NCBI RefSeq assembly: GCF_000699445.3
Contig: NC_067198.1
Coordinates: 8,616,801 to 8,680,800, forward strand
Source of the DNA: Schistosoma haematobium
Taxonomy: Eukaryota; Platyhelminthes; Trematoda; Strigeidida; Schistosomatidae
Length of the DNA stretch: 64,000 nt
Reading direction: 5' to 3'
The position numbers and the translations under genes are program-made. The notes beneath the pieces were generated by a model. The model made no database searches. It was not told where the DNA came from and was given only the letters and a program-made list of their open reading frames with translations. Below, in pieces: positions 15,641 to 60,775 of the stretch (position 1 is the first letter of the stretch; every line of letters starts with the position of its first letter).

Positions 15641-15912
15641 ATCAAAAGCGGTTTTGTGGATATTATAGTAATTTCAATAGTTGGAATCATAAACTACCAT
15701 AGAAAACCTGAAAGCACTGGACGTCCTATCAGACCTATAAGTGGTCTAATCGTTAGGACTGATAGGTTTTGGGTTCGAATCTTGCGAGTAGGGATCGTGG
15801 ATGCGCATTGCTGAGGAGTTCCACAGTAGGAAGAAACCGCCGTCCAGTGCCTCCAAGTTTTCCATTGTGATCTAGCTTCAATTGACTCATGATCTCAACT
15901 ATTAAAGTTTCA
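15641..15912 (+). mobile_element. Family B hammerhead SINE with inverted tail (fold-back)
   Basis: The left 90 bases are the reverse complement of the family tail. They are followed by a forward body with B box GGTTCGAATC (15772-15781) and a hammerhead: CTGAGGA at 15811-15817, GAAA at 15833-15836, cleavage triplet GTC at 15842-15844. Stem I is GCATTG with CAGTGC (one G-T wobble). Stem II is TTCC with GGAA, which differs from the family GTCC/GGAC form but still pairs. The usual 11.1 C is an A, so activity is uncertain. The tail at 15850-15910 is shared with the other copies. Confidence 0.8.
15805..15850 (+). ncRNA. Hammerhead ribozyme motif, family B, near-intact
   Basis: Core CUGANGA and GAAA are present with a GUC triplet, and stem I closes. 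The base pair next to GAAA in stem II is broken. Predicted cleavage after 15844. Confidence 0.6.
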
Positions 15913-16012
15913 AATAAATTGAGCATTGGGTAGGAAGACGATGAATAGAAAAACTGTATTTCTGACATATCGTAGCTTAATGTAAGCTACTTTTTCAGAG
16001 TAAATAAATAAC
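15913..16012 (-). repeat. Short repeat terminus, third copy
   Basis: Minus-strand copy of the motif at 3774-3862, ending in AGAGTAAATAAATAA. It abuts the family B SINE. Confidence 0.5.
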
Positions 16013-16672
16013 CGACAATAAATTAACACAGGTTTAAAATACAATCCAATATTTCAAATGTCACAATTCCAGTCACTTCAGCGAGTGAAATAGAAATATA
16101 ACTAATCAAGCCAATCACTTTTATTATAAGTTTATCTGGAATTTTGAGAGGATCAATGCTATTGGGGAAATCTTACTCTATATTACGCAGCTTGATAACA
16201 TGATAAGTTACCAATGAGCTGTATGAACCTACTGTATATAGAGGGTATCTTGTGGACAACCTTAAACCTCTTAAAATAGTGTATTCAATCGCTCCACTTA
16301 AACTAGTTGTCACACTACAAATTGATCGATTTAATTTGAACGGAGCTAAAAGATCATATAATATGAGACTGGTCATTATTTAGTGAACAAACATTTGTAA
16401 GTTATATGTTCATATTAAGACCAAAGTAAAGTATGATTAGTTAAAGCTATTTCTATCAACGTTCTTTTTTATGAAACGGGATTGTTAACTTCATGCTCGA
16501 TACATCTTCTTTATCCAAGTATGGAATCGGCAGTAAACATAGAAGGGGTCCAGGCGGATCTAGCTATGATTAGTATTATTTTGTAACATTCCATAATTGT
16601 ACTGATCAAACCTAATTAAAATGTAATGATCTAAAGTTTTATTGATTTAATCTATTAAAACTATTTAGAAAT

Positions 16673-17106
16673 AAATTCACTTGGTATTGTTTGGCTTGTA
16701 TCTTCCCATTGAGGTTTAAGACTGCAATTGATCAGTCTGTTATTGGCATATGTGCATACTGTGCGTATGCCTCGATATTGCCTTAATTCACAAGCTTTTT
16801 GCAAGCAATGATGGATAGTGGCTAGCAGTGGTATCCAGGACGCGCGTTTCATCCTACTCGGGATTGACTCAGTAGCTGAGTGGATAACGCTATGGCGTTT
16901 GAAGCGAATGGTACTGGGTTCGAGTCCCAGAGTGAGCATCAACTCTGAGATGCAGGTACATCCAGCTGACGAGTCCCAAATAGGACGAAATGCGCGTCCT
17001 GGATCCCACTGCTAGCCACTATCCATTATTGCTTACAAATAGCTTGTGAATTAAGGTAATATCGAGGCATACACACAGTATGCACATATGCCAATAACAG
17101 ACTGAT
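16673..17106 (+). mobile_element. Family A (Sm-alpha-like) hammerhead SINE in a fold-back arrangement
   Basis: A tRNA-like Pol III promoter is present: A box TAGCTGAGTGG (16873-16883) and B box GGTTCGAGTCC (16917-16927). A hammerhead follows at 16960-17004. The flanks are inverted: 16731-16866 is mirrored by 16964-17106, with words such as GGCTAGCAGTGG, TTAATTCACAAGC, CCTCGATATTGCCTTAA and ATTGGCATATGTGCATACTG all having their reverse complement on the right. The left arm thus also carries a decayed antisense hammerhead (16832-16866). Schistosome Sm-alpha SINEs are known to carry hammerheads with the same core and stem II, so the family assignment is confident; the arms are what I see here directly. 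It lies just upstream of the first exon of the 415-residue gene. Confidence 0.88.
16960..17004 (+). ncRNA. Hammerhead ribozyme, intact core (Sm-alpha type)
   Basis: Stem I is ATCCAG (16960-16965) with CTGGAT (16999-17004). CUGANGA is CTGACGA at 16966-16972. Stem II with its loop is GTCCCAAATAGGAC at 16973-16986. GAAA is at 16987-16990, minimal stem III is TGCGC, and the cleavage triplet is GTC at 16996-16998. All conserved core bases are present; one stem III pair is a T-G wobble. Predicted self-cleavage after 16998. Confidence 0.9.
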
Positions 17107-17281
17107 TATATTTAAAAATAAAATTGAATAAAATCTTACTTATCTTTAATAATATTAAATTCAGATGTCTTAGTTCCACAAATAAATGGGGAAGTTCTCA
17201 ACAACAACAATAACAAAACTGGATTGAAATCAATAATTACAATTTATATTTAACAAAACTTCATTAATTCCCTTCAGAGTA

Positions 17282-20200
17282 ATGTCAACTGTACTTGAAA
17301 GTCAACCATATGCAATATATCCTATTGTGTTTAATCCTTATGAAGTACCAAGTTATAAACGACTAGCTACTTTCAGTAAGTTAATTTTAAAAAAAGTGAC
17401 AAATAAACAAAAGAACAAGCATTTTAATTCAATGATCAATGTTTTGGTGTGTTATTTAAATATTTAGCTCTTTTTTATCATTTACCAACATTTATAATCA
17501 TTTATTAACGTTATCAAACACGAATTTACCCTCAAGTTTGATTAACAGTTGACATCGAATAATTTGAGTGAATTATATTTTATGGATTCTGACCGGGTGC
17601 TTACAAAAATAATTGAAGAATGAACAGTTTGACTAAAAGATTTAAACGGTAAGGATTATTAGAACAACACATCACTATTACATATGTGCGGATGGATATG
17701 TAAGGTCATTTAAAATAGATATGAAAAACAGTGATTATTTACACTTTGGAAACTGATAAGATGAAGTGCGGACTAATTACCGGATATCTGAAGAGTTAAC
17801 ACAAGTTTTAATAGTTGGATCATAGGAAGTTATACAATGAGTGAAAAGGTTATTGTAAACTGAATGTATCTTAATAGACAATAAACTTGTAGCACACTGT
17901 TTTTCAACTTTGAATACGTATAACCGATCCAACAAACGTCAGTGTATTTCCACTAAAATCTTAATGTAATTCAGTCACTGAATTAACTATGTATTTGCTT
18001 AAATGTGTGCGACTGTTTATATGTCTATTATCTATTCTTTTGTCGGTTGTAAAGATAATTTTAACAGTTCGGTAAGAATTTGTTCATGTTTAGGGAGGGG
18101 CGGTTTTTCATCATAAATATACTTTGCTTCACCTAAAATATGAAAATTTTATCAGGAAAAAACACCTAGCAATTGTTGAAAGTTTCATTTTAATAAAAAG
18201 AATTAACTTCTAATCAATGCACTTATTTGACATAGTCGATATAACATACTCTGTCTAATAAGTGCTTAACTGAGGTCATAGAGACTTTATGTCACAAAGC
18301 GTAAAATACTCCAATATCATTCCTTTCAACTCATCTCTCACTTGTGGAAGTTATTTGTAAATCTTTGAATTGTTTAAACATCATTGGACATCTTCAGAAG
18401 TTAAATTTTACAGAAGCCTGTTCAGTAAAGAATTTGTGATTAAGTATTAGAAACCCTATCGGGAAAATTGTGAAACATCAAAAGTGGAAGTTTGAGATAA
18501 AACGTTGAAGAAATATTTTTTTTTAAGATATGTAGACTGAATTTTTGAAAGTAGAAATTTATGTACTCAGTTCATCTATTTATTGAACAAAGTTATAGTA
18601 TATAAATCTGCTATAGTAGTTGTTCTAAAAATGTTCAACTTTACCGATTGTTTGAGTAGGAAAAGTGACATCGAAAGGATATTCACTTAATCGATATCCA
18701 ATATGTGGTAAGGTAAATCTACAAGCGAATCGTAATTAAATAGTATTGAAGTTAGTGTGGAAAATGATGGAAGTAGATAAATTATTACATATACAAAAAT
18801 GTAATAATATGGTGGAAGTCGATAAATATGTTCAACGATAGGGGATCTAACGATCAACCGGACAATATTGATGTTTGAAAGGTGATAAACTCACGCTTAT
18901 CTTAAAGTATTATGATAGTTGAAGTAAGATTCGTTTGAAAGAAGCATTAGTGTGGTCTTTCATTTTTGGTTTAAATTGTGTAAGGAAGCCTAAACTTTCT
19001 GCTTTAGGCTTACTTGATGGATGAAACAAGTAATCAAAAGTTTAGAGGAATATAAGTTTGAGTCATTTTCGGTATTATCAAAGTATTCACTTGTTGTATT
19101 CCTCAGAGTCTTGATTATCTTCTTAAAGAATATAACTTGTCCGAATCTTCTCCATTTCTATTCGAGGACTATTTGTTTGATATAATCACGATGTAAACTA
19201 GGTAAAAATAAGTGGGGGTTCAGTAGACTATTATGCTCACAAAATGATAGAAAACTATGTCTCTATCGTAACACGAGTGTTGAAATTCTCTGTCCGATTA
19301 TCAAACATCCAATGGTGGAATTTACTGTGCAACGGTTTTCAAATTAAACCACCTAGAAAGCTTTGATCTATGTCAAGCTAATTCTCAACGTCTTCTTGAT
19401 GAGAAGATTATACTCATAATTTCTAGTCGACACTATACTGAGCTAAGTAACATTTTTTCTCCGTATTAGCTTTACTGGAAACTCAATTACGATTAATCAT
19501 TGTGTAAATTCATCTAATATAATTGTAAATGGATGAGAATTTCCAAATGGATCGACAACTATGCTTTCAAATTTCTATTAGCTTTTATGAAACCGTTATT
19601 TTCTCTGATAAACTGAATCTAATCCACAAAATGATACTAATTGAATGGGTATAGTCATATTCTTGATGTTTGAATGTGTTCATTTACATTCTGTGTTACT
19701 GTGTTACATTATCTGTCAAGGACTATTCAAATGAATTTATAGAATTAACTTTCATTATTATGAAATATCAAAATATCCAGAAAAATATTTCATATTTTCT
19801 ATACTACATAGATATGAGTAAATAAAATATTATGATGCCCATATATTATCATTGTTCAATAAAAACCTTCCATAGCACATCTATTTTGAAAGTAAAAGAA
19901 CACAATAAGACATATTTATAATCATTTAAATGTATATTTTTATTTATTTATCTAAGGTGGTATTCCATTTAAAGAACTTGATAAAACATACACTGATAAT
20001 CATTTAACCGATGAGATAAGATCAAAAGATTGTTCCACTACGAACTCTTCTTCATTATGTTTAAATGAATCTGATGTACAAAAATATTCAACAATCATTA
20101 AAAAACAAGTAAATAATGAAAATAATAAACAAATGAAACATAAATCATTATTTAAAACAATTAAAAAACAATTACAAGATAGATGTGGTATAGGAAATAA

Positions 20201-23200
20201 TTGGTTATTAACATCAAAAATCAAATTAATTCCAAGAGTAAGTTAAACAATAGAATATATATATATATATATTGTTTTTCATCAACTTGATGGTATTTAT
20301 TTATTTATTTATTTTAACACATAGATATTGGTACAAGGAGGCACCGAATACATATGCGCCACACAAATCTAGTTTTATTTGTGTGAGGTCTATGATACTG
20401 ACCGGGTACACAAACCGAAGCAGATGGTTTACTTAGGGGGCCACACCCCGAGCCTTCGACCTGAAGGTTTGATCCACAAGGCAACGGAGCATCGTAAAGG
20501 GATGCAGTCACATGGTAGCTGGTGGCCAATAATTGGTTCATACACCATTTGTTCCTTCAAGATACTGGAGCACATGTGCACCATTGGTTTGGAATCAGAG
20601 TTTTCCAACTCCACTAGGTGGACTCTCCATGTCCACCAACCCGGTTAAAGCACCGGACGTTCGCTTTTCGTCCTCCCAATTTCGTAAACAACATCCCCCC
20701 ACGAGAAGGCAGTGAGTAGGACTTCCCTGGCAGAGGCTATATACGCGTGTCCATGTGAGAGCATTTCGAGTTGGAGAGCGGACTTTTCGCACTCTCGGCC
20801 GTACCACAGCATTTGAGGGCTGATGGTATTTGACATAGTTATAGGTAATTGACAAAAAATCCTGCCTAACCAATATTTTTATTATTTGATTAAACATATT
20901 TAGAATATCTAGGTAACTATTAATTATATAGGTACTCAGATACTTATAATCGATTGTTATAACCATGAGGGCTACTAATGTAAATTAGTGAATTGAGACA
21001 ACAATAATAAATGGAATACACTGAACAGTTATTCTTATAAAATGGTATCATACAGAATCATATAGGATTCTGTAAAGGACATCTAATATGTGAAAGCAGA
21101 GGATTATCATTGACCAAAAATTTTTTTGATTTTTTAACTAAGATTCCTAATCAGCCTTGGATTTTAATGGGGATTCGGTTAAACGGTGAATATCTATTCA
21201 GAAGTAAAATAATGTATCTAGTGGTATTAGTCAAACTATAAAACAGGATAAATTTCGGTTGGAAGTTGCGTGATCTCGACCTTATCGATGGCAAGCACGC
21301 ATCTGAATAGCTGATTAAACTAATTCCTATCAGTCATTCATAGTTGTAGATTGAAAAGAATAAATTACAATCGTCTAAGTTTAGCCGATCAGTCATTACG
21401 CAATTGTAATAATTTTTTGAATCATTGGTACATAGAATATTTTAAAGTCGGCTTAAAAAATTAGAGGCTTTTAACCCTTATTGCGATGAAACGGTTACAA
21501 ATTAGGCCATTATAATGGCTACTTAGAAACCTGACAAAATTGAAATGCTGTAAGTTTTCATTCAGGACTGGTCGCCAACACAACTAACATTAGACAAAAG
21601 TTTCCTGACACAACCCAGTACTTATAAACAATGAGAATTAACAATATTTCTGTAAAAGAAGAATTTGAAAATATCCCTAGAGTTTAAGAAATTATTTTCC
21701 AATAAATAAATAATGTCAGGAAGGGTTTTGTGGATATTATAGCAATTTTAATAGTTGAGATCATGAGTAAATTGAAGCTAGATCACTATAAAAAACCTGG
21801 AAGCACTGAACGGCCGTTTCGTCCCACTGTAGGACTCCTCAGCAGTGCGCATCCACGATCCCGCCTCGCGAGATTTAAAAAAAAACCAAATTCATAAAAC
21901 AGATTTTCAATACGTTCAGTAATTTAACTTCATGGTATCAGTCATATAAGACAATGGATATAATGTTATGAAAACTACAGTGAATGTATATTAGTTCTTG
22001 TTTGTGTGAAAGTTATTCTGAAAGCTTGTCTAAATGTTTAAAGATAAAATCGTTTTTTATGAAAGGAAATTCTCTGTTTTCCAGACAACATTTCTGTTGA
22101 ATAGTGTTGTGTTCTCTGAACTAGTTGGTTTAATTACTAATTTATAATCGTCGTTCTGTATGAAATCATTCTGTAGGTTATTTTAGTGATATCATATATT
22201 TTTTCGTCATTGTTTTCCCATTTGTTATCTTGCTGGATTGACTTCAGATAATCAATCGACCTGCCGGGATGTATCTATAGACTGGATTTATAACAATATG
22301 TTTATTGATTATCTGCTGATGCGAATGTTATGTCATCAGTTCTTTGAGTTTCCTAGAATAACTCTCTGATATCGTTCAGAACGACAATGAAATAGTTGTC
22401 ATTAAACCATCTAACACAGAGAACACAGCCAATAAATCATCTAGCTAAAATATTACATCACCTCCATTTGAAAGAACTAGTTAAACCCGTTTGATTTATT
22501 TAAAATGACTGTTGAGTAATAATTCTTTAGCGAATGATCCCATTGACTACTGCATAAGTTTACGTGACACAATTGTAAACAATTATTTACATTCTCAAAT
22601 ATTATTCTCAGCTGATGATTTATTGAAAACCGTACTGTAATAAAATATACATGATTTTTCAGCAAGTAGTTTCATCCAAGAAACCAAGTATACCAACTCC
22701 AAATATGGATTTATTACAAGTGAATGTTTTAGATACAAATAGAAATAGTTATACTTCCAAAACAAATCAATCAACTTCTCATGAGCAAACATTAATAAAA
22801 AGACCACATTCAGTTGCATCCGTGAGTTGATTATTTTTGGATTTTGAACTAACTATAGTCAACAATAGAATATTGTCAAGTGTCAAATATGTAAGGTGCT
22901 CTTAAAAATAAGCAAATTTAAAAAATGATACGTCTCGTTTCAGTATTTGCTAAAAAAAATAAACACAGTGGTAATATAATTAGCAATGACTTAAAATAAG
23001 TACTGGAAATTAACAAAATCAAAGTCATTTCTTTCAACTATAACCTTTAATCCATTCTTGTGATTTACAGAATTTTGATCTATATGCTATCTATTGACTG
23101 AAATGCTTAACAAAATTATACAAAGTACAGACATTGTAGTATTGTTAAAATTGAAACTTATAGTTTGTTTAAAACGTCAAATGTTCACATATTTTTAATC

Positions 23201-26126: not shown

Positions 26127-29100
26127 CATGACTTTATTCAATACTCTATCTTTACTATAATACAGAATTTTCTTTTACAATCAATATGTATTTGAAATAA
26201 CTAGATAAATAATCAAGAATTAAATGGAGTTTTTTAAACAAAAAAGAATCTGTACAACGTTTCATTAGAGATATGTTTAAGGATACAAGTTATTGACTAG
26301 GTCACCCCTGACAACCAGTTCGTCGCGTAGTATAGTTGCGTGATAAGGTATTGTAGAGCATTTATACATTTGATTGCGTGCATGGATTCTAATGTATTAG
26401 CGTCTCGTTCTACTAGAAGATATACAAGGAGACAAATGTGAATGAAGTGAATGGTTAGTATCTGCTAAGATAACAATTGCTAGGAGTTTGTAAGAATTTA
26501 AATATCCATCTGCAACCATATACATAATAAGCTCAAGAGATTCGTCACATGCCCTGGTAACTTCCCTCAGCACTCCCCGCAATACGGCAAAATCTTTTCT
26601 CAAAAGCCCAGGAAAGAGTAATTGGGAATAGTAAAGAACATTATATCATACATAATAATTAGATTGTAAAAGTGAGTAGGGAGCAATGCCAAAAACATGT
26701 GGTCTGCTTGTATAGTAATTCAAAAGGAAAACTTCCCTCGGTATCAATAAAACATGAATAGACCAAGAGAAATCAGAAGAAAAACTTACTTACTTACACC
26801 TGTCACTCCCAATGGAGCATAGGCCGCCGACCAGCATTCTCCAACCCACTCTGTCCTGGTTTTTTCGTACTACTTACATTTGGTTTTTCTTATTTTTGTC
26901 TTCTGTTGTTGTTGTTGTTTTCGAGCTTTGTAATTATCTTGGATTTCTTGGGTTTATCAGTATCCCGAAGAAAGGCCGTATTGAACTTTTGTGCTGTTGT
27001 CCGCCCGATTGTCAGGGGCTTCTTGAATTTCAATTTCATCTTGACGACCAGCAAGTGATGATCTGATGCTATATCAGCTCCTCTCTTAGTTCTCACATTC
27101 TCCATTGTCCTCCTGAATTTTTTGTTGATGCAGATATGGTCGATTTGGTTCTGCGTAGTGTGATCCATGGAAGTCCATGTGGTTTTGTGTATGCGTTTGT
27201 GTGGGAATATAGTGCCACCTATGACCAGTTTATTGAAGGCACATAAGTTTGCAAATCTCTCACCATTTTTGTTTCTTTCTCTCAGTCCATATCGTCCCAT
27301 TATGTCTTCATATCCGGTGTTGTCCATTCCAATCTTGGCATTTAGGTCTCCCATCAGAATGGCCAGGTTCTTTGTTTGGCACTTCTCGATGATTGACTGC
27401 AGCCTATTGTAGAATTGATCTTTAGCGTCTTCATTGTAGTCGTTGGTAGGAGCATAGCATTGGATGACGTTCATTGAAATGCCATTTTTTTGTTTTGAAG
27501 GAGGCTTTGATGATCCTTGGTCCATGAGATTCCCATCCTATAAGTGCATTTTGTGCTTGTTTGTATAGCATCAATGCAACTCCTTGTGTATTTGGGGCAT
27601 TTTCTTCTTCATGGCCGGAGTATAACAGAAGCTCCCCTGAAGCTAGTCGTTGCTGTCCAACTTGCGTCCAATGTGTTTCACTGATCTCAAGCACCTCCAG
27701 GTTGTATCTCCTCATTTCTGCAGCAATTTGGAAGACTCTCCCGGTGTCCCACATTGTACGAACATTCCATGTACCTAAATAAATGGTTGCTCTGGTTGTC
27801 AGAAAGGGGCATCGGCCTAGTGGCTTCCGAAGGAATTCGGCTTTCATCATGAGGCGTCATAGTTCTTCTAAATGAAGACCTTCTGACTCCCAGGGCAGAG
27901 TTTAAAAGGTTTGAATAATTTTTTCTGGTTGGCGTTTTTTTGGCGAGTTAGTTTTCTACGGGATGTGTTCACTAACCCCATGCCCAACCCTCCTCCTTTA
28001 CCCGGTCTTGGGACCAGCAATAGCCTCAGAGGGACTCCCGGTGGAGTTAGAAGAAAAACTTACACCAAGATGAATGACCTATGACACTTGTCAAGGAATC
28101 CCCATTAATACAAACTTTGTGAGATTCCGATAGGGTGCTTAATTGTTGTTCATGTTTCCCGCTAAATTTAACAGTTTGATATTTAGACGGATTAAGTGTG
28201 AGACCATTAAAAACAGACTACTGTTCAATAAGAGACAAGAACTCATTCATTTTAAGGGGATGTGAAGTGGAAAAAATCGTTGTACATACAGTGAGATCAT
28301 CCGCATATCTAATAAAAGTGTTTCCTATGGAAGATGGCAGATTATACAGAAAAAAATGAGAAAAAGAAGTAGAAACAGCAGCTTTTCGTGACGTATTTTC
28401 CTGAGTTAAAGACATTAAACATTGTTCTCCAAGTGCAGTATGTTATCCTCATCTAGAGAAGTAAGAACACATTCAATTGAATACTTAGCTAACAATGTTG
28501 ATGCTGTCAAACTTGTTTAGTAGTAGTGGTCTTAGAATAGAGTCAAAGGGAGAGGTATAGTTTAGAAATGCGCGTCGAACCCAATCCATACCCCTTTCCA
28601 GACTGAACACTATATTATGATGCGGAACAACAGAAACATCTAAGGAATTGAATTGGATGAATCCGCTCTTTACTGTAAGTTGAAGTGGGATTAGCAATAG
28701 ATTTTATATCGTTTTTAGAAAAGGTATAATTTTTGCTGTGGGTTTGAATTTTGCATTTTTTTTCACCAGGTATTTTCATAGATATTAGGTCTATATCTTT
28801 CTTCATATTTTCGATATAAAATTAGTCGAGGACTCGTTAAAGATGCTCGTGGTGGGATGACACAGAACGTCAATGCACTTCTTAAAGGGGAGGTTCGGGA
28901 TTTCACTAGATTGGGACAAGTTAAGTGACTGAAGTTATTTTCGAAGATGAATTTTGGTGAAAAGCGAAACACAACTCTTCTTCAAACTTGTGGATATAAT
29001 GAAGCATGACGTCAAATGACTGACTTAGAAAAGACTTATTCAAGTCGCAAACATTAAGCTAGGTATCTTCACAAATGCAAGGTAGTATACATTACTTTAA

Positions 29101-31662: not shown

Positions 31663-34077
31663 CCTTGTCCGTATATACAAATTGTCATGTCAGCTCTACT
31701 AATGCATGTGAATTTGGCAGCAAACGTTTTTATTCAAAAAGCTGATCGATACAAACGTAAAAAAGTTATTATTACTTCAAAATTTAAAGTATATGTCAAA
31801 TCTAAATTCGTCTGTAGTTAAAAAATAAATTTATTTCAAACCATCTTCTACCCAACGTCAAAGTAATGCCATGTTCCCTATATATTCCACATCAAATTTT
31901 TCTAAATAATTGACTGGATTTAATACTACTCATATAGGCAATGCGATGCCATAATGAAACACAAGACCTTGTCTAACTTAAATGTTGTTTAAAAACAATA
32001 CTAAATGTGGTTATAGTTATTCTTTTGAATTCAAATAAGTTTTTAGGTGAGACATAATGTAAAGTATTATCCGGTAGATGGCAAACAGAACTGGTATCTA
32101 GAAACACAATAACTTTTTCAAAGTCTCAGTCAAACTTGACGGTGTTTAGCCTTTCTGTAGTGGTTAAAGCGACCAAAGGTTACTTCATAAAGTAAGTGAT
32201 ATGATGCTTTTACGCTGACTTTATGTATATTTACCAAGAGGAATCCAAATTGACGTGATTTTAGGGTAATCGAATATCTTTATTCTTTGTACTAGGTTGA
32301 TTCCTAGTTCTTGGTGCTTTAATGCATAGAGAAGTAAAACTGTAAGATTATCTTTAGTAGATTACAAGAAAGAGTTGTAATTCTTGATCGATATTATAGT
32401 TGTAACGTCAAGTTGTAAGAGGGTGAACAGGGAAATAAAAATTGGTCTCAACAATTATAAAACTTCAGAATGTCTTTGAATATCTCTATATAACATTTAT
32501 TTTAAATAAGTTCTCTGCTGAACGTGAATGCTGGAAGACAATAATTGGGTGAAGCTATAAATAAATCTTTGAAATAGTTTCATATATTTTCTTACATCAC
32601 ATTGAAAATTATTCGACTGTGATAACGCTTGGACCAGTGATGTTACCTTATCCATGTTCGTCATATGAAGTTTCATTTCAACAATACTATTCAAGTTCCA
32701 AATGTCACACAAAAACTTTAAAAATTATTCATTTCACAACCAGTAATTCAGTGCCAAACAAATGATAACATAATACAATATACAGTCATCATTCATATTC
32801 ATCATTGTTATTCTGTCTCTTTAACATAACTCCACTTCTATAACATCGCGAAATGCCACTGTAATTTTTATGCTTATTGCTATATGAGCTTTTCACTAAG
32901 GATTAGCTTGTTTTAAGCAATCTGTTAAGATAGCCTACAAATTTTGCTTCATTCTTATAAATGTGACTGAAAATGTGCATTTAGGACATAAGCTGTAATT
33001 CAGAAATAATGACTATCTAAGTACAGACGTGATTCAAGTGAAATTGTGATAATCGATAATAAAATCAATAATTCTTAAACCAGCCATTCAGTTTAATTGC
33101 ATGCTAGACGTACGGTGAATACAATGAACATGGTTAATGAAATGTGTTCTGTTGTTTTCATTTAATTCCTATATCAGAAACTAACTTTGGGTAGACAGCT
33201 ACTGAAATATAAGGATGAATAACTGGCTGTTTCTTCCTGGTGTGGAAATCATCAGCGATGAGGACCCATAACCCAAAATGGTTCCGAAAACAAAGTCTTC
33301 AGGGCGCTTAAATTTCAGACTACTGAGTTACCATCCAATGGTTAATATTTTTAACTTCAGTCAGCGAATTTTCATGTCCATCATCCATTTTCGTCAAAGA
33401 TGTTTGCTTAAACCATACATGAAGTGTATGGTGTACTGTTTTCCAACCTCATTTTATATCATCATAACATTAACGGTAGATCGATTTCATTTCAACTCAC
33501 TTCATTCATCTTTCAATCATTCATAACGACATATTATTAGTTGTAATGTTATTTAGGTAAAAATATCTCTGAGGCTTTAACATAATATGTTTTATTTGAT
33601 GAGTTTAGAAAATGAATTTCCATTATGCTTGGCGATATAATGTTTTCTGTTAGTCATGAACTATTGAATGTAGTGTTAAATCGTAGTTTTTCAAATGAAA
33701 CCATCCATTTGAGCTGTACATTCATGTTTATCGTGTTTTAATGAATTTACGAGTTTATAGAATTACAGAACGAGAATGCATCATTAAGTAGTCAGTGATT
33801 TTAAGCAAAAAAATAAGATCACTTGTTAATCTGAAGGTTAGCGAATAATTGGATAATAAAAATAATTCACAGATAGGATAACTATCTACTTGACACATGA
33901 AAAAGTAATAGAAAACGTAAATATCATGATAACAATTAAATAATAATTGTAAACAGTTGTCAAGAGGTGATAGTAATTGATTACGGATTAAAATTACAAT
34001 AGAATGATGAGGATATAGTAATATAAAACAAGATCAATACTTACTGGAAAGGTAATTTGGACTACAGAAGGCTGAAT
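31663..34077. other. No gene seen
   Basis: AT-rich. The short frames at 32497-32712 and 33278-33526 have no coding character that I can support. A possible trace of a family B SINE is at 33225-33300. Confidence 0.45.
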
Positions 34078-35447: not shown

Positions 35448-35544
35448 CAATTGTTTGCTCAAATACTTTTTTGGTTTTCGAATATTCTATGAGTATTTTT
35501 GAACTGCTGAAATCAAGTGAACACCCAGTTATTGATCGGACACC

Positions 35545-35892
35545 GGCATCCAACGGTGTTAATGTCTAACTTCAACTAATCCACGAAATTGCACCACCGT
35601 ACACCATTGTCTTCAGTGAGCTGATATCTCACAACAGACCTGGTTGAACTGCACCGGTAACGGCTTCTCACTAGAACTCCAGGAAATGCCTCTTAAAGCC
35701 AGTCACTAGTGAGCAGATGTTTATTATGAGAAGGGGTTTTGTAGAGATTTTATAGTCTCGCGGGGGGCGGGAACGTGGATGCGCACTGCTGAGGAGTCCC
35801 ATACTAAGACGAAAAGGCCATTCAGTGCTTCCAGGTTTTCCATGGTGGTCTAGCTTCAATTGACTTGTAATTCCAACTATTGAAATTTCCAA
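35545..35892. mobile_element. Family B hammerhead SINE, head-to-head composite
   Basis: 35545-35712 is the minus-strand 5' part of the long family form (CCGGCATCCAACGGTGTTAA, CTAACTTCAACTAATCCACG, TTGTCTTCAGTGAG). 35730-35892 is a plus-strand tail-ribozyme-tail unit from which the A and B boxes are deleted. The hammerhead at 35783-35828 keeps its core. Confidence 0.75.
35783..35828 (+). ncRNA. Hammerhead ribozyme motif, family B, intact core with AUU triplet
   Basis: Stem I is GCACTG (35783-35788) with CAGTGC (35823-35828), CTGAGGA at 35789-35795, stem II GTC with GAC, GAAA at 35811-35814, triplet ATT at 35820-35822. AUU is permitted by the NUH rule; stem III is weak. Confidence 0.6.
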
Positions 35893-37576: not shown

Positions 37577-37762
37577 CAAGGCTTTTGTGAATATTATAAT
37601 AATTTTGATAGTTGGTAGCACTAGACGGCCGTTTCCTTCTAGTATGGGGCACTTCAACAGTGCACATTCGCGATCCCACCTCGCGAGTTTCGAACCCAGG
37701 ACCTATCAGTTACGTGAGCGAGCACTTAACCACCCAATGGTGTTAATGTCTAATTTCAAACA
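37577..37762 (-). mobile_element. Family B SINE, left half of a head-to-head pair
   Basis: Minus-strand copy with tail, damaged ribozyme (TTGAAGTGCCCC), B box GGTTCGAAACTC and 5' part. It meets the plus-strand copy that follows at their 5' regions. Confidence 0.75.
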
Positions 37763-38068
37763 AGCAGTGGCCAGTGGAATTCAACCGGGTTTGTTGTGAG
37801 ATAGTAATTCACTGAAAACAATGGTAAATTTGTCGCTCATTTCGTGGATTAGTTGAAGTTAGACATTAACACCGTTGGATGGCGATTCAGTGGTCCAGAG
37901 GTTAGGCGTTCGTGCGCGTGACCGATAGGTCCTGGTTTCGAATCTCGCGAGTCGGGGTCATGGATGTGCACTGCTGAGGTGTCCTATACTAGGAGGAGAC
38001 GGCCGTCCAATGCTTCCAGGTTTTCCACAGTGGTCTAACTTCAATTGACTCATGAATTCAATTATTAA
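37763..38068 (+). mobile_element. Family B SINE, right half of a head-to-head pair
   Basis: Plus-strand long form: 5' part (GTGGCCAGTGGAATTCAACC is its complement partner region), GATTCAGTGGTCCAGAGG A box, TTTCGAATCTC B box, then CTGAGGT and GGAGAC where CTGAGGA and GACGAAAC are expected. The ribozyme is therefore inactive. The pair ends about 130 bases before the young RTE insertion. Confidence 0.75.
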
Positions 38069-38397
38069 ATCAACAATTGATAGTAATTTTTAAAAAAATT
38101 ATAAATTACATTCATTTAAGCCTAAATTAGTCTCTTTAATAAATTTCGATTATGTAATAAAAAAGGAATTATTCTGAGAAGTTTAATATAATTGCATGAT
38201 ATATTTCAAAACTCCGCCTGTAGCTCTTCTAGAGTTACTGCCGGTCCCAAGCCCGGGTAAAGGAGGAGGGTTGGGCATGGGGTTAGCGTCCCCATCCCGT
38301 AGAAAACTAACTCGCTAAAAAAACGCTTACCAGAAAAAATAATTCAAACCATTTTAACTCTGCCCTGAGAGTTAGAAGGTCTTCATTTAGAAGAATT

Positions 38398-39321
38398 ATG
38401 ACGCTTCATGGTGAAAGCCGAATTCCTTCGGAAGCCACGAGGCCGATGCCCCTTCTAACAACCAGAGCAAAAATTTTTATAGGTACATGGAACGTTAGAA
38501 CAATGTGGAAAACCGGGAAGACCAGCCAAATAGCAACGGAAATGAGGAGATACAACTTGGCAGTACTGGGAATCAGCGAAACCCACTGGACCCAAGTTGG
38601 ACAGAAAAGGCTAGCTACGGGAGAGATGCTGCTATACTCCGGTCACGAAGAGGAAAATGCTCCACACACACAGGGAGTTGCTCTTATGCTGTCCAAAGTA
38701 GCACGAAATGCACTTGTAGGATGGGAATCCCACGGATCCAGAATCATCAAAGCATCATTCAAAACAAAGAAGGAGGGGATCTTAATGAATATTATCCAAT
38801 GTTATGCACCCACCAATGATAGCAACGACGACATTAAAGATCAATTCTACGAGCGGCTGCAGTCAATCATAGAGAAATGCTCAAGAAAGGACCTCACCAT
38901 TCTGATGGGAGATCTAAATGCCAAGGTCGGAATAGACAACACTGGATATGAAGATATTATGGGACGACATGGACTGGGAGAGAGGAACGAAAATGGAGAA
39001 AGATTTGCAAATTTGTGTGCATTCAACAAATTGGTCATAGGGGGCACAATATTTCCACACAAACGTATACACAAGGCTACATGGATCTCACCGGACCACA
39101 CTACAGAGAACCAGATAGACCATATTTGCATAAAAAAATTCCGAAGGACAATGGAAGATGTGAGAACCAGGAGAGGAGCTGACGTAGCTTCAGATCACCA
39201 CCTAGTTGTAGCCAATTTAAAACTGAAGCTAAAAAGAACTGGACAAGTGGACAAACAGCAATACAAAGGTTCAATACAGCCTTCCTTCGAGATACTGACA
39301 AACTCAATGAATTCAAGATAG
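38398..39321 (+). CDS. RTE retrotransposon apurinic-type endonuclease domain (frameshifted from RT)
   Basis: This domain nicks target DNA to prime reverse transcription. Exonuclease III-like motifs in order: GTWNVRTMW (about residues 30-38), SETHW (60-64), CYAPTND (about 136-142), [10 protein letters not shown] (about 168-177) and SDHHLVV (about 264-270). These include the catalytic E, D, N and H positions. From near base 39235 the frame turns to unrelated codons and stops at 39321. The family sequence (as in the copy at 26890) continues in the next frame, which points to a lost base in the A-run at 39231-39236. In an intact element this would be one protein with the downstream reverse transcriptase. 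Confidence 0.92.
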
Positions 39322-39377
39322 CTCTCAACAACAGATTCCAAGCCTTTCAAGATCTACTGAAGGAAGAAGAAACTACC

Positions 39378-41414
39378 ATGGAGGACAACTGGAAAGGCAT
39401 CAAAGAAACATTGACTTCAACGTGTCAAGAGGTTCTGGGCCTAAAGAAACACCATCATAAGGAATGGATCTCTATAGAAACACTGGACAAGATCAAAGAA
39501 AGGAAGAACAAGAAGACAGCAATTAACAACAGCCGAACACGAGCAGAGAAAGTCCAAGCACAAGCTGAATACATAGAAGCAAACAAGCAAGTGAAGAGGA
39601 GCATTAGAGCCGACAGGAAGAAATACGTGGAAGAATTAGCAACGACGGCAGAAAAAGCTGCTAGAGAAGGAAATATGAAACAGCTCTACGATACAACGAA
39701 GAAACTATCAGGGAAATACAGTAAACCAGAGAGGCCGGTCAAAGACAAAGAAGGCAAGCCAATCACTGAAATTCAACAACAGCGAAACAGATGGGTAGAA
39801 TACTTCGAGGAACTCCTGAATAGGCCGGCTCCAATGAATCCACCGAACATCGAAGCAGCACACACAGATCTTCCTATAGATGTCAACCCACCAACGACGG
39901 AAGAAATTAGAATGGCCGTCAGACAAATCAAGAACGGGAAAGCAGCAGGAGCCGACAACATACCAGCTGAAGCACTGAAATCAGACGTCGAAGTAACCAC
40001 AAGCATGCTTTACCCTCTATTCAAAAAGATTTGGGAGGAGGAACAAGTGCCAATGGACTGGAAAGAAGGACACCTCATCAAGATTCCAAAGAAAGGAGAT
40101 CTGAGCAAATGTGAAAACTACAGAGGCATTACACTACTGTCAATACCAGGGAAAGTCTTCAACAGGGTGTTGCTGAACCGGATGAAGGATGCAGTAGATG
40201 CCCAACTTCGAGATCAACAAGCTGGATTCCGAAAGGATCGGTCGTGCACAGACCAAATTGCAACACTACGGATCATCGTCGAACAATCAGCTGAGTGGAA
40301 CTCGTCACTATACATCAACTTCATTGATTATGAAAAGGCATTCGACAGTGTAGATAGGAGGACATTATGGAAACTTCTTCGACACTACGGAGTTCCTGAG
40401 AAGATTGTCAATATTATCCGGAACTCATACGACGGACTACAGTGCAAAGTAGTGCATGGAGGACAGCTGACAGATGCATTCCAAGTAAGGACCGGAGTCA
40501 GACAAGGCTGTTTACTCTCTCCATTCCTCTTTCTTCTGGTGGTCGACTGGATTATGAAGACCTCGACATCTGAAGGAAAACACGGAATACAATGGACAGC
40601 TCAGAACCAATTAGACGATCTGGACTTCGCAGATGACCTAGCCCTCCTATCACGTACACGTGAACAGATTCAGATAAAGACAGCCAATGTAGCAGGAGTC
40701 TCTGCATCAGTAGGCCTCAGCATACACAAAGGGAAAACCAAGGTCCTCAAATTCAAAGCGGAGAACAGCAATCCAATCACCCTTGATGGCGAAACTCTGG
40801 AAGATGTAGAATCCTTCACATATCTGGGAAGCATCGTCGATAGACATGGAGGTTCAGATGCAGACGTAAAGGCGAGGATTGGCAAAGCAAGGGCCGCATT
40901 CCTACAATTGAAGAACATATGGAACTCAAGACAACTTTCAACCAATATCAAAGTGAGAATCTTCAATACGAACGTCAAGGCAGTTCTACTGTATGGAGCT
41001 GAAACTTGGAGAACTACAACAACCACAATCAAGAAAGTACAAGTATTTATAAATAGCTGTCTACGCAAGATACTCAACATCCATTGGCCGGATACCATCA
41101 GCAATAGCCTTCTGTGGGAGAGAACAAACCAACTACCAGCTGAAGAAGAAATTAGGAAAAGACGATGGAAATGGATAGGACATACATTACGCAAATCGTC
41201 AAACTGCATCACGAGGCAAGCTCTAACTTGGAATCCTGAAGGGAAGCGGAAAAGAGGAAGGCTAGAGGACACATTACGTCGGATAATAGAAGCAGATATG
41301 AAAAGGATGAATTACAACTGGAAGGAGTTGGAAAGGATTGCCCAGGACAGGGTTGGATGGAGAATGCTGGTGAGCGACCTATGCTCCTTCACGAGGAGTA
41401 ACAGGTGTAAGTAA
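39378..41414 (+). CDS. RTE retrotransposon reverse transcriptase (678 residues)
   Basis: Copies element RNA into DNA at the nicked target. Motifs: [15 protein letters not shown] (fingers), [20 protein letters not shown] (residues 315-324, first catalytic D), [10 protein letters not shown] (373-382) and FADD (417-420, catalytic pair). A thumb follows, and then an RTE-type C-terminal region with [10 protein letters not shown] and GWRMLV. ATG at 39378 is probably an internal methionine of the joined endonuclease-RT protein, because open codons in this frame extend back to the frameshift near 39235. The stop TAA is formed by the terminal GTAA repeat itself. No damage to catalytic residues was seen. 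Confidence 0.95.
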
Positions 41415-44595: not shown

Positions 44596-44629
44596 TTGTG
44601 CCAGATTTTCAACTACTACTATTTTAATA

Positions 44630-44870
44630 TCAGGAGGGGTTTTGTGGATATTATAGTAATTTCAATAGGTAAGGTCAAAAGCCAGCTCAGTAGTCTAGAG
44701 GTTAAGTGTTCGCGTGTGAGACCGGTGCATCCTGGGTTCAAATCTCACGAGGCGGGATCATGGATGAGCACTGTTGAGGTGTCCTACAATATGACAAAAC
44801 GGTCGTCCAGTACTTACAGGTTTTCCATATTGGTCTATCTTCGATTGACTCATAATCTCAACTATTGAAA
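44630..44870 (+). mobile_element. Family B SINE with inverted termini
   Basis: Begins GGAGGGGTTTTGTGGATATT, then A box AGCTCAGTAGTC, B box GGTTCAAATC (44735-44744) and a ribozyme with changed core (TTGAGGT, ACAAAAC). It ends CTCAACTATTGAAAT, the complement of the start-region word. Good example of the complete layout. Confidence 0.8.
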
Positions 44871-45193
44871 TGACTACTATTTTATTTAAATTTGAATAGT
44901 AAATATTACAAAAGAACAATTAATTTATTTTGATCGGACAGGCTATTTTTATAATGGTCATACATTCATAATAAATATAAGAGAAAGTTATTTATTTATT
45001 TTAATAAATCCAAAGAAAAAATAATAAATATTTATCATTTAGATAATTCATTCTATTTTGTTTACAAAAACAATTTATGCAAGCAATCAGAAAGTATTCT
45101 GAATAAAAATTGATACGAAATAATCACAGTTCTTATGAAAGCTCATGACAGTCATCATGCATCAAGTGTGTAGTTATATACGTCTATATAACA

Positions 45194-46275: not shown

Positions 46276-47002
46276 AGTATATCAAGGATGGCTGGGAATG
46301 CTTTAAGAAGAATGGTTGTAACCATATGAGTGAATACTTCAGCAGTTAATCTTTTTAATTAAAATAATAAGATCATAATCTTAATTTCAGAAATTCATAT
46401 ATCTTGGTCCCTACCTTTTATGTTTCATATGTTTATCAATTTTAAGCGTTTTGTTAACTAAAAATTTGGTAGGTTTCACTTAATTTTCACTGAAATACAA
46501 ATTATGCATCATTGTGCTTTGAGTTTTCATACAAAAGTATAGTAATCGTTGTCTTAAATCTTATTAGTTCTTCATTAGTTTAAATAGTTCTCATAGAAAG
46601 GCACAACGAAAGTCTAACTGTCAAAAAATTTAAATAATAATAATTAAACTAGATCTATTCATTAAACATTAATAGACTTTAATCGATATTAACATCGAGT
46701 AAATGTTGCCAAGAGACTATAAATCTCAATTCACAAATTTATGTTTATGCTTATAGCTATAAAAAAAAATTTTTTTAATCACTATTACATGAAATCAATG
46801 CATAGAAGATAATAAACAATCAACAATTCCCTGTGGTAAACCATATTTCTGAGTCAATTTTTTCTTTGTAATCAATAATATTACATATCAAACATAAAAT
46901 TAATTTCCACTAAACTGTAATAATGTCAGTTTGATTACTTCTTATGTTTGTTTAATGAATGTAACAACCGATGTTTCTTTTTACACCAATTAATAAACTA
47001 GT

Positions 47003-47350
47003 GACTGACTTCAAGAGGTAGTTCCTGATGTTTTAGTGAGAATCAGTGACCAGTGGAGTTCAGCCGGTCTGTTTGGAGATAGTGATTCACTGAAGACAAT
47101 GGTGGACGGTGACGCAATTTCGTGGATTAGTTGAAGTTAGACATTAACACCATTGGGTGCCGACCAGCTCAGTGGTCTAGAGGTTAAGTGTACGCGCGCG
47201 AGCTCGATAGGTCTTGGGTTCAAATTTCGCGAGTCGGAATCGTGAATGCGCACTGCCGAGGAGTCTCAAAATAGGATGAAACGGCCATCCGGTGGTTCCA
47301 GGTTTTTCATGTTGGTCTAGCTTTAATTGACTCATGGTCTCAGCTATTGA
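47003..47350 (+). mobile_element. Family B SINE, best-preserved long form
   Basis: Complete order: 5' part (CAGTGGAGTTCAGCCGGTCT, GTGATTCACTGAAGACAATG, AGTTAGACATTAACACCATT), A box CAGCTCAGTGGTC, B box GGTTCAAATTT (47217-47227), ribozyme, tail. The ribozyme has CCGAGGA in place of CTGAGGA but keeps GAAA and an ATC triplet. Confidence 0.85.
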
Positions 47351-47935
47351 AATTAATAAACACTCAATAAAAACTTTCTATTTCATTGTGCTAATATTTT
47401 CATAACATTCTGAAAGAATTTCTTTCGGTTTCATTTATATGACTATATGAAAATTATAACCCATTGTTTATATTGGTGGAATATTACTCTCAGATATTTT
47501 ATTTAAAAACACAAGCGATTTAAGAAAACTAAAGCCATCTGAGTGAATAAAATTTCCTTTTCGATTGTGTTGTTCACTAAAGTTTGCTTTGTACTTTTTT
47601 TCAACTGCACATTGAATCAATAGTCAAAATGGCTACCTAGAATTGGATGTAAAATTAGTCAATAGTTCTATTGTCCATCTATCTAAATAAGGAGATTCAT
47701 TCAAAATCATTCATGAAATCGAACAAACTGACCTCAAAGAAAATTGTGTAAGAATTGTATGCACAGCTGATACTTTGATAACTCGTTAGTTGGAGAGTGA
47801 TTTATATTTTCTAGAGGGATATAACCAGTTCCGTTTCTTACCACAGTTATAAACTATTATTAATTTCATAATTTTGTTAGTTATTTTGAGCAACTTATAT
47901 TTAATACTTAGAAAAAAATATATATATAATATTGG

Positions 47936-55069: not shown

Positions 55070-55565
55070 ATTCACTTGGTGTTGTTTGCTTTCTGTCTTC
55101 CGATTGTTCATTAGGACGGCAGTTGATCAGTCTGTTATTAGCATATGTGTTTACTGTGCGGTTGCCTCGATATTGCTTTAAGCCACATGCTTTATAAGCA
55201 AAGATAGATAGTGGCTATTGGTGGAATCCAGGACGCTTATAAGGCTTGTGACTTAGGGTAATATCGAGGTAATTCGCACAGTATGAACATATGCCAATAA
55301 GAGATTGATCAATTGCAGTCCTAAACAACAATGGGAGGATACAAGCACACAACATCAGGTGAATTTAAACTTCATCCAATCTCACAAGCTAGCGGCTATC
55401 AGGAATCAGTAGCTAAGTGGAAAATGTGATGTCATTTGAAACGGACGGTACTGGATTCAAGTTCTGGAGTGAACACTAACTCTGAGATGCAGGTACATCC
55501 AGCTGACGAGTCCCAAATAGGACGAAGTGGCGCGCGTCTTGGATTCTATTGCTAGCCACCATCTA
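55070..55565 (+). mobile_element. Family A hammerhead SINE, fold-back, GAAG core mutation
   Basis: AATTCACTTGGTGTTGTTTG start as at 16673. Left arm and mirrored right arm meet around 55225 (words CCTCGATATTGC and GGTAATATCGAGG). Then come A-box-like AGTAGCTAAGTGG, B-box-like GGATTCAAGTTC, and a hammerhead with CTGACGA, intact stem II and GTC but GAAG for GAAA (near 55525). Predicted inactive. Confidence 0.85.
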
Positions 55566-58658: not shown

Positions 58659-58790
58659 TGGAGCTCTAAGTGTTCTTCAGAACATCATCATCAGCATAAA
58701 CTTGAAGTAGAAGTGGAGTATTGGAATTTCTTCACTTCTACTTCAAGTTTATGCCGATGAATGATGTTCTGAAGAACACTTTAAGCTCCA
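58659..58790. repeat. Long hairpin, arms about 57 bases
   Basis: 58659-58715 and 58733-58790 are near-perfect inverted copies separated by 17 bases (for example AGTGTTCTTCAGAACATCAT with ATGATGTTCTGAAGAACACT). The right arm continues into the repeat known from 48160-48330. Confidence 0.9.
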
Positions 58791-59059
58791 CGACTAAATC
58801 GTTCAACCTGGAGGACAACACTCCAATAAAATCATCCACATGAGCTAAAAATATCCACAATCTCAATATCTATGTAATCTTTCTTTTAAAATATTTGTTA
58901 CAAACATCTGCGAAACATAAAAATAGATAACTTTAATTATAAACCTTATCATTTGAAATATTTTATGGTCACTGATTTTTAACGGCAATGCATTTTGTTA
59001 CGTTATCTTATGATTGAATCAATTCGTTTCAACAAATCGTTTACTATCATTATAGAGGT

Positions 59060-59150
59060 TGTGAAGATTATTAAGTTTTTGATTGAGATCATGAACCGAT
59101 TGATGTTAGGCCACCGACGGAAACCTGGAAGCACTGGACGGCCATTTATT
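59060..59150 (-). repeat. Family B SINE tail fragment
   Basis: AGGCCACCGACGGAAACCTG, GAAGCACTGGACGGCC; cut before the ribozyme. Confidence 0.65.
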
Positions 59151-59287
59151 AAAGGAAAAATATTGGAGAATAGGTACTTTTTTAAGATATTTAAATGTTT
59201 GTAACTGTTGAGTGAAACCAGCTGACATAGAATCGAAAAGTACAGAGTTTTCTTACCCCCATATAAATTTAAGTTGGTAAAATTTAC

Positions 59288-59288
<1 letters not shown>

Positions 59289-59339
<51 letters not shown>
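59289..59339. repeat. TA microsatellite
   Basis: About 25 TA units. Confidence 0.95.
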
Positions 59340-59342
<3 letters not shown>

Positions 59343-59460
59343 AGTGGTCTCTGCGCCTAATATGGACATCAAATCCGGGATGTAGGTACATTCAGCTGGT
59401 GCTTCTTAGATAGAACCTTTAGCTGATTTTTGATTCTACTGATAGCTACAATCCATATAT
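59343..59460 (+). repeat. Degenerate family A SINE, 3' part
   Basis: GGGATGTAGGTACATTCAGC, TTCTTAGATAGAACC and GATTCTACTGATAGCTAC. The ribozyme core is lost. Confidence 0.5.
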
Positions 59461-60324
59461 TCTAAAATTAACATCATATAAGAACTTTTATTGAAGTCAA
59501 AATACCATTTACAAGATTACATCGCTTACATTATAATAAGTAAGATTAACTGTTCTTTTTCTACAATTGATTGAAGGACTATACATGAAATCTGAACACG
59601 ATAGTAATTTTTTATATTAAATTAGTTCCATCCATGTTCACTTGGTTGTTCAATAATCTCTATAGAAGTTTATAAGATATGTCACTTTATACCCTTATTC
59701 TCTTACGTCATTTGATAAACAAGCATTCAAAAATTTACGCTAATAATCTGTGCTTTAATACATTGTTATTTGTCCGTCATACTCATCATATTAGTTTACC
59801 TGTGTTTTATCTCATATGGCTTGTATTTATTACAGTAATTACTTGTGTACAAGGGCATATTGAGCAGTAAGACAGAAATGATGAGTGTATATTGTTCAGC
59901 TAAAATAAACCGAATGGCAAAATAATATCATCAACTCTTATCACTATTTACATAAAGGAAATTTTTATTTACGTGATCTATTATTTTACAGCTGTTTGAT
60001 ACTTCAAAGTGAAACCGATGTTATGGTTCAGGGTGGAAGTTGACAAGAAACCTTAGACCTAGATTTCGTGCTAACGCTCTCTGATGAACTCGACCCCGTA
60101 TCACTCATTTTCACAGTAACGGATTTTAACTTTGAGCTATTTCGGATGTTGGTCGCTTCCTTTAGGACGAAGGTATACTTACGACTGATTAACCTCTAAA
60201 TAGTATTCAGTGTCATTTATCCCAAATCCTTCTTTGTAATGATCGGATTCGGTCGACGTTGTGCCGTTTTTTTTAAAAGTAGTTCATTATTTTTCATTTT
60301 ATACTTTCCATTCTGTGATTATAG

Positions 60325-60645
60325 GGTAGTAGAGATTGTTTAGTTTTGATTGAAATCATGAATGGACCAATGTCAAACCACCATCAAAAACCTTTAAGCA
60401 CTGGATGGACGTTTCGTCCTAGTATGGGACTTCTCAGCAGTGTGCATGTATGACACGGTCTCGCATACCAGACTGGGGCCCAGGAACTTCGGTCTCCCGC
60501 ACGAATGCTTAGCCTTTAGAAGACCGAGCAAGCGTTCAACAGTGTTAATGCATGAGTATAACCAATGCACGATATTGCGCAATCGTACTCCATTGTTTTC
60601 AGTGAGTAACTGCCTCACACCACACACAGTTGGACTTCATTGGTT
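60325..60645 (-). mobile_element. Family B SINE, minus strand
   Basis: Tail, ribozyme (CTGAGAA in place of CTGAGGA; GAAA kept), eroded B box (CTGGGCCCC) and 5' part (AACAGTGTTAATGC). Confidence 0.7.
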
Positions 60646-60775
60646 TGAGTCCCACTTACGAAATCGTTGATGCACACTTCTGAGGAGTCCTATACTTGGG
60701 CGAAATGTTCGTTTAGTGCTTTCAGGTTTTTTATTGTGGTTTAAGATTGATCCATCGATCCTGTAATTACTCATA
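60646..60775 (+). mobile_element. Family B SINE fragment, plus strand, with intact ribozyme core
   Basis: Follows the minus copy head-to-head. GGTTTGAGTCCC B box, then a hammerhead at 60673-60719, then tail. Confidence 0.7.
60673..60719 (+). ncRNA. Hammerhead ribozyme motif, family B, core kept, GUU triplet
   Basis: CTGAGGA 60680-60686, stem II GTCC with GGGC (one wobble), GAAA 60702-60705, GTT 60711-60713. Stem I has a mismatch at the base nearest the core. Confidence 0.5.

Follow-up and report, generated by a model that had tools for sequence, protein, structure and literature searches.

The 64,000-nucleotide stretch of Schistosoma haematobium DNA analysed here (contig C4, NC_067198.1, positions C4:8616801-8680800; hereafter the window) carries copies of two families of hammerhead ribozyme-bearing short interspersed elements (SINEs), family A, which is of the Sm-alpha type, and family B, whose hammerhead has another stem I. 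A second hammerhead family in schistosomes is unsurprising in itself, because the hammerheads of Sm-alpha, Sj-alpha, the W-elements and S. haematobium are known; of greater interest is that these SINE-like insertions have ends of the Penelope type. Many B insertions start, unexpectedly, with the reverse complement of their own tail, and the two ends that result are typically one long and one short. We consider it probable that A and B are non-autonomous elements mobilised by a Penelope-like enzyme, with a hammerhead that works best as a dimer. A consensus hammerhead, inverted arms, long and short ends, duplications and tandem spacing are directly seen in the sampled copies; we infer the use of RNA polymerase III (pol III), dimeric cleavage and the identity of the enzyme.

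Family B and the ends of its insertions

Our data support family B as a real second hammerhead-bearing SINE-like family, tRNA-headed and with a type I hammerhead. Its units read leader, tRNA-like head, hammerhead and tail, with the leader again after the tail in tandem copies. All genome counts come from one genome (400,267,458 bases, 163 contigs), in which the exact B stem I plus core occurs at 3,892 sites (reversed-pattern control 0), an intact core with stems II and III and stem I left free at 5,399 sites (control 0), and the B tail at 5,976 places at no more than two mismatches. The copies examined in detail were picked by tail, not by hammerhead: an exact 48-letter tail gave 92 copies (92 of the 100 listed exact-tail places, contigs C1 and C2), which are therefore young, and 69 of them, with a full ungapped hammerhead, enter the hammerhead counts, the other 23 being left out for truncation or gaps.

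The consensus of these 69 copies is an intact hammerhead (GCACTG CTGAGGA GTCC CACAATA GGAC GAA ACG GC CGT C CAGTGC) with the CUGANGA...GAAA core, the three helices and the H17 other than G that mark type I. An initial annotation of the window had described a second family with altered stems I and III, and the consensus, in the window as well as in the genomic copies, indeed has GCACTG/CAGTGC as stem I and ACG-GC-CGT as stem III. All core letters are kept in 30/69 copies, and core, U16.1, H17 and all 13 pairs together in 5/69. Among the 100 listed of the 3,892 B sites, and at locus L118, loop II has at least two common forms, CACAATA and CATACTA, and both members of some head-to-head pairs have the same rare variants. 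A candidate A/B chimera at locus L016 proved to be an ATCCAG string at a junction.

At a relaxed threshold (-ps80), ARAGORN finds the B head tRNA-like (87.3, isotype ambiguous) and the A head to be tRNA-Gln TTG (96.5); at the default threshold no tRNA was called in either head. An alignment to 16 human tRNAs, which ranked Thr and Pro first for B and Gln ninth for A, was not relied on.

Within the window, the placing of family B in the initial annotation was borne out, as two B copies (21803- and 24913-) reach the gathering score of the Rfam Hammerhead_1 model; the Rfam search that the annotation had proposed returned, above that score, these two and two A copies (16960+ and 55497+), with sub-threshold matches at 37968, 35783, 15805, 44768, 60398-, 47250 and 37618-. 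An iterative nucleotide profile seeded with seven B copies gave 33 window matches at E < 1e-3, among them three family A copies as well as B copies that are old and truncated; the first-round, B-only profile already matches the A copy at 16903-17001 (E = 1.3e-4) across B box and hammerhead. The pattern CTGANGA-N4-24-CGAAA has 5 matches in the window vs 0.47 in shuffles, 4/5 being A or B copies. No more than six gaps fall in the hammerhead in 19 of the 30 window B hits; nine core letters are kept in 7 of these 19, of which two, 21803 and 24913, also form standard pairs, wobbles allowed, at each of the 13 positions, 24913 only when G-U in stems I and III is counted.

In a first scan, duplications of at least 10 bp flanked 29 of the 92 B copies vs 8.9 with swapped flanks. 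A tail arm lies within 460 bp upstream in inverted order in 48/92 copies and in direct order in 6/92. The end types of the 48 inverted-arm rows are long/short 25, short/long 13, long/long 5 and short/short 5 (Fisher p = 1.9e-4; p = 3.9e-4 with one row per insertion), so that 38/48 rows have a tail of about 35 bp on one arm only: beyond the B tail the short end extends 2-10 nt and the long end, which is AC-rich, 35-44 nt, a difference of about 35 bp. Counted by us, the two ends lie about 61 and 96 nt downstream of the hammerhead cut. With the ends fixed, duplications of at least 10 bp are found in 21/48 rows vs 0.2 with swapped flanks, namely in 21/38 mixed-end rows and 0/10 same-end rows (p = 0.0026); one locus, L087, was counted from both arms, and per insertion the figures are 20/47 overall, 20/37 mixed and 0/10 same-end. 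These target duplications are 10-16 bp long and 84% A+T. Two insertions of the window, at 15805 and 44768, have inverted arms within 12-bp duplications. Nearby hammerhead pairs are head-to-head in 27/43 cases vs one quarter expected (p = 1.8e-7). A sister-arm test gave a modest result (6.7 vs 8.6 differences, p = 0.004). Arm lengths and junctions differ between B copies. At one locus (L083, C2:24972200-24973900) a tail-to-tail B pair has 75 identical upstream letters on both arms, so that here the inverted duplication takes in flanking DNA.

Family A, with 953 genomic sites for exact stem I plus core (reversed control 0), was probably moved like family B. Its ends were analysed in 30 rows from 28 loci, giving long/short 12, short/long 2, long/long 4, tandem 2 and none 10, and the 8 rows in which the duplication reaches 10 bp or more all combine a long end with a short one (7 insertions, L130 being counted twice). 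The A and B tails fail to align (score 9). Five identical variant A hammerheads on alternating strands lie within 170 kb at C1:8013598-8182941, a local amplification.

Candidate mobilisers

Published systems offer a close parallel. Rotifer Penelope insertions have inverted pLTRs, mostly head-to-head, 8-10 bp duplications and an optional 31-bp tail on one pLTR arm (PMC3846280). An anole Penelope-like protein starts reverse transcription at two internal RNA sites with a 30-40 bp tail between them, a tail described as unique to Penelope-like elements (PLEs); both strands of an AT-rich target are cut and extended, copying begins at AC-rich sequence, and the hammerhead is cut, by our subtraction, about 85-92 nt before the main start site (PMC11167929). 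The families described here resemble PLEs (PMC3846280, PMC11167929) in their head-to-head inverted arms, the optional tail on one arm, tandem copies, a hammerhead upstream of the start sites and AT-rich targets; they differ from them in having no reverse transcriptase/GIY-YIG frame, in their tRNA-like head and, for family A, in an extension of about 125 bp.

On the reading we favour, family B would be a non-coding retroelement present in high copy number. Its leader would be followed by a tRNA-like head that contains pol III boxes, then by the type I hammerhead, whose stem III is palindromic and very short, and last by a 3' tail that can end at either of two points about 35 nt from each other. 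Pol III would transcribe the element, and two B RNAs, or tandem units, would pair via stems I and III into a double hammerhead that would be cut after GUC. A Penelope-like reverse transcriptase could then bind the tail and cut both strands of an AT-rich target, copying would start on each side at one of the two tail sites, and joining of the two cDNAs would leave, within a duplication of 10-16 bp, an insertion with an inverted tail arm at each end, one arm being long and the other short.

Several observations weigh against this reading. An autonomous Penelope-like partner was not found: in a genome-wide search (139 candidates scored, E <= 0.001) the sole Pfam GIY-YIG match is the host nuclease SLX1, Pfam being a collection that may miss Penelope endonucleases, and NCBIfam assigns no name at that site. 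Penelope-like elements of the Perere-10 clade are on record for S. mansoni. No frame for reverse transcriptase plus GIY-YIG was seen in the units of about 400 nt, which are not classed as PLEs. The 47250 copy of the window has an 11-bp duplication and no arm. The association of long with short ends falls short of significance in family A (4, 12, 2, 0; p = 0.098), where mixed ends make up 14/18 inverted-arm rows and the extension of about 125 bp falls outside the 30-40 bp of PLE tails. A peak of 5' ends at the cleavage site was looked for and rejected, 6/80 truncated copies ending within 4-10 nt of the tail with no sharp peak, and the 5' break points give no sign that cleavage is used. These uncut hammerheads and the missing peak do fit the anole system, because hammerhead cleavage is dispensable for insertion there (PMC11167929).

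The best-surviving alternative is that the families are metazoan retrozymes, in which the hammerhead would turn tandem units into circular RNA and insertions would be copied from the circles. The tail-to-leader order at 35544-35755 and the 375-427 nt spacing of 6/8 same-strand pairs, near the 403-nt composite unit, speak for it, as do the direct-order upstream tails expected of tandem copies, and size and type I hammerhead are as described for retrozymes (PMC7229834). Small non-coding tandem units and type I hammerheads are indeed what the families here have in common with metazoan retrozymes not flanked by long terminal repeats (PMC7229834); they differ in the tRNA-like head and in close pairs that are mostly head-to-head (27 vs 8 same-strand pairs). 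We therefore regard this origin as possible yet less probable than the Penelope-type one, with which it is compatible because the authors of PMC7229834 themselves propose a Penelope-like mobiliser.

It is less likely again, and we think it improbable, that these are ordinary tRNA-SINEs moved by a long interspersed element (LINE) of the RTE or CR1 type, with the inverted copies made by twin priming or template jumps. The tRNA-like heads would be expected of such SINEs, variable duplications and 5' truncation suit LINE priming, the window holds a LINE with endonuclease and reverse transcriptase, and 38/92 B copies have no arm within 460 bp upstream, a result that also counts against the Penelope-type reading. 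In twin priming, however, the inverted piece stops at a point inside the RNA, whereas its outer end is here a tail end, and where duplications reach 10 bp or more they accompany one long and one short end in 21/21 rows. Nor do the tails clearly surpass shuffled sequences in their likeness to the single window LINE that was compared, at its 3' region: the B tail scores 14, equal to the 95% level of the shuffles (maximum 16), and the A tail also scores 14, where the 95% level is 19.

A DNA transposon resembling a miniature inverted-repeat transposable element would account for inverted ends and duplications, and is very improbable given the variable duplication length of 10-16 bp, which strongly disfavours it, the one end that is about 35 bp longer, arm lengths and junctions that differ from copy to copy, and the tRNA-like head.

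Broadened to schistosome hammerhead SINEs as a class (family B and Sm-alpha), the Penelope-type reading would make them a tRNA-headed class moved by PLEs rather than LINEs, with a palindromic stem III kept for an intermolecular double hammerhead; we see the arguments for and against this wider proposal as evenly balanced.

Pairing, dimers and decay of the hammerhead

The initial annotation had read compensatory change in three stems between A and B as evidence of conserved RNA structure, and of the three only stem I stands. For a mixed alignment we chose 3 rows of A (2 from the window and 1 locus) and 26 of B (8 from the window and 18 of the 30 loci L009-L038); in it, 12 cells are changed on both sides vs 3.1 in shuffles. 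All 12 are in the three A rows, at 4/6 stem I pairs and once in stem III; stem II has none. The A/B stem I change is one evolutionary split, not many events, and as far as the letters can tell the structure is kept along it. The stem III swap, CG>GC, is not compensatory in cis, since it falls on the central dinucleotide of ACGCGCGT/ACGGCCGT, which is a loop of two bases there, and the three true stem III pairs are identical in A and B. The supposed re-pairing of stem II at 15811 is a register slip: GTTCC...GGAA occupies the columns of GTCCC...GGAC in other copies, the common frame reads G.A, T-A, T.G, C-G, and TTCC/GGAA forms four clean pairs only after a 1-nt slide that leaves an extra G between A9 and the stem. 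An old B-like copy at 33172-33289 (-) with CTGATGA, TTTCC/GGAA and GAAAC resembles the odd stem II of this copy, and the two possibly form a small subfamily.

Other details of the annotation needed correction as well. The order A box, B box, hammerhead, tail is partly right, since the letters show the A box to be absent from 21803-, 35783 and 60673, while 24913- keeps the B box alone. The cleavage triplet, said to be constant, is GTT at 21803, ATT at 35783 and GTT at 60673. As for the three copies put forward for cleavage assays, 21803 keeps the core and all 13 pairs and the others are damaged, stem I of 60673 being broken at both ends and 35783 having a mismatch in stems II and III.

Within B, covariation shows no excess: across 68 distinct rows 777/884 cells are paired vs 781 +- 2.8 in shuffles, with 3 double changes vs 5.9 +- 2.2. 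C>T and G>A make up 179/314 substitutions. The fraction of changed letters is 0.079 in the core, 0.091-0.109 in the stems, 0.128 in loop II and 0.203 at H17; the upstream flank differs at 0.30, a figure inflated by truncations and gaps and hence no test of constraint. The initial annotation had named lack of covariation together with a broken consensus core as signs against conserved structure, and our sample of the genome gives the first of these, yet the consensus core is intact. For that reason we conclude that the source elements were under constraint, whereas individual B copies look neutrally decayed. Where repeat copies decay, differences among their letters are a weak guide to RNA structure and call for caution.

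A dimer would give the stem III change another meaning. Both stem III stretches are eight-letter palindromes, ACGCGCGU in A and ACGGCCGU in B, and the cofolding minimum of the B consensus is exactly a double hammerhead with intermolecular stems I and III (-36.1 kcal/mol vs -13.8 per monomer). These predictions suggest that the hammerhead would work best as a dimer, and in a dimer only would CG>GC be compensatory; that two families are palindromic is suggestive, not proof. Dimeric cleavage is known for newt hammerheads with a short stem III (PMC6155905) and for short-stem-III hammerheads associated with Penelope (as cited in PMC7761336). Three further points weigh against the favoured reading: the family A double hammerhead (-33.7 kcal/mol) lies 1.2 kcal/mol above the dimer minimum (-34.9), the minimum-energy monomer fold of neither the A nor the B consensus is a hammerhead, and the anole hammerhead was cut only in the presence of protein (PMC11167929). 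Help from a protein may, by analogy, be another way around the short-stem problem, without a dimer.

Relatives and the window

The two families are like Sm-alpha (SMalpha; W36 W-elements, S. mansoni) and Sj-alpha (S. japonicum) in being SINE-like, with a type I hammerhead and a very short stem III. Family A matches the Rfam consensus and its tRNA-Gln TTG head is that of Sm-alpha (PMC2770079), while family B differs from Sm-alpha in stem I, head, tail and leader. Hammerheads are known from Sm-alpha and Sj-alpha, and in S. mansoni the candidates exceed 38,000 (PMC2770079). S. mansoni W-elements carry active hammerheads, some of them weakly like Sm-alpha, and three selected W25/W36 variants cleave in vitro; the W25, W26 and W27 hammerheads are among those weakly like Sm-alpha and have an extremely short stem III (PMC8490949). 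W25-W27 may be the same as family B, and this is the main risk to the novelty of the stem I variant. In S. haematobium itself, 16 hammerhead-like small-RNA clusters have been reported, seven overlapping SINE/tRNA repeats (PMC5993326), and what is available on hammerheads of this species (Rfam AF036390.1; PMC5993326) gives no family split, anatomy or end structure.

PLEs have been proposed, not shown, as movers of hammerhead repeats, a link based on hammerheads present in both, on tandem copies and on co-occurrence (PMC7229834, PMC7761336). A literature search covering few subscription papers found no Penelope-type ends for a tRNA-headed SINE or for Sm-alpha, and the matches listed for B sequence letters in literature texts were unrelated.

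The features of the window are collected in the table. Target-site duplications were not found there for the pairs 60398/60673, 49940/50159 and 42115/42186, the A pair at 16960 or copy 21803. Apart from the SINEs, a Twister-P1 ribozyme (38205-38274, +, 75.6 bits) lies directly upstream of LINE reading frames for an endonuclease (38311-39318) and a reverse transcriptase (39183-41411), and a second, below threshold (27984-28053, -, 52.7 bits), is also directly upstream of LINE frames; the likeness of the two window LINE copies starts at the twister. Twisters at the RTE 5' end are mentioned as work in preparation (PMC7761336). A palindromic hairpin at 58692-58756 matches the mir-5928 model on both strands (41.9 and 40.1 bits, below the cut-off of 59).

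Table. Hammerhead SINE features of the window (positions counted from its first nucleotide).
Positions	Strand	Feature	Remarks
15628..15639	.	Left target-site duplication AGTTTCAAATAA of the 15805 B insertion	Right copy 15906-15917
15640..15723	-	Left inverted arm of the 15805 insertion	Reverse complement of long-ended B tail and hammerhead 3' strand
15696-15723 / 15841-15868		Arm match of the 15805 insertion	
15805..15850	+	B hammerhead	All nine letters of the core kept; in the common frame, stem II has a G.A mismatch and a T.G wobble
15851..15905	+	B tail, short end	Followed by the duplication
16731..17106	.	Family A (Sm-alpha type) head-to-head inverted pair/palindrome	Arms 133 nt, 92% complementary
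16960..17004	+	Family A hammerhead	69.5 bits, above Rfam gathering score
21803..21848	-	Top B hammerhead in the window	Core and 13 pairs; triplet GTT; head 5' truncated; Rfam Hammerhead_1 40.9 bits
24913..24958	-	B hammerhead	40.3 bits, above Rfam gathering score
35544..35755	-	B leader adjoining B tail extension	Tail-to-leader (tandem) order
35783..35828	+	B hammerhead	Single mismatch in stem II and in stem III; triplet ATT
37613..38018	.	B head-to-head pair	Hammerheads 37618-37663 (-) and 37968-38013 (+); arms 119 nt, 79% complementary
44615..44626	.	Left target-site duplication ACTACTATTTTA of the 44768 insertion	Right copy 44873-44884
44627..44684	-	Left inverted arm, long end, of the 44768 insertion	
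44768..44813	+	B hammerhead	Core decayed
46988-46998 and 47351-47361		Duplication AATTAATAAAC of the 47250 copy	11 bp
46999..47350	+	Long B copy, no inverted arm	Leader, tRNA-like head, hammerhead 47250-47295, tail
55497..55544	+	Family A hammerhead with 3-nt insertion	57.1 bits, above Rfam gathering score
60362..60755	.	B head-to-head pair	Hammerheads 60398-60443 (-) and 60674-60719 (+; 60673 in the text); arms 86 nt, 80% complementary
63581..63728	-	B insertion with inverted arms	10-bp duplications TTATAAATAT at 63571-63580 and 63729-63738

The PLE-type end signature in sampled copies of a tRNA-headed SINE that is thousands strong makes the proposal of a Penelope mover testable, by genome comparison and with the published in vitro system. 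If the proposal is true, the head-to-head palindromes of hammerhead SINEs would be explained, and SINEs would gain another kind of partner.

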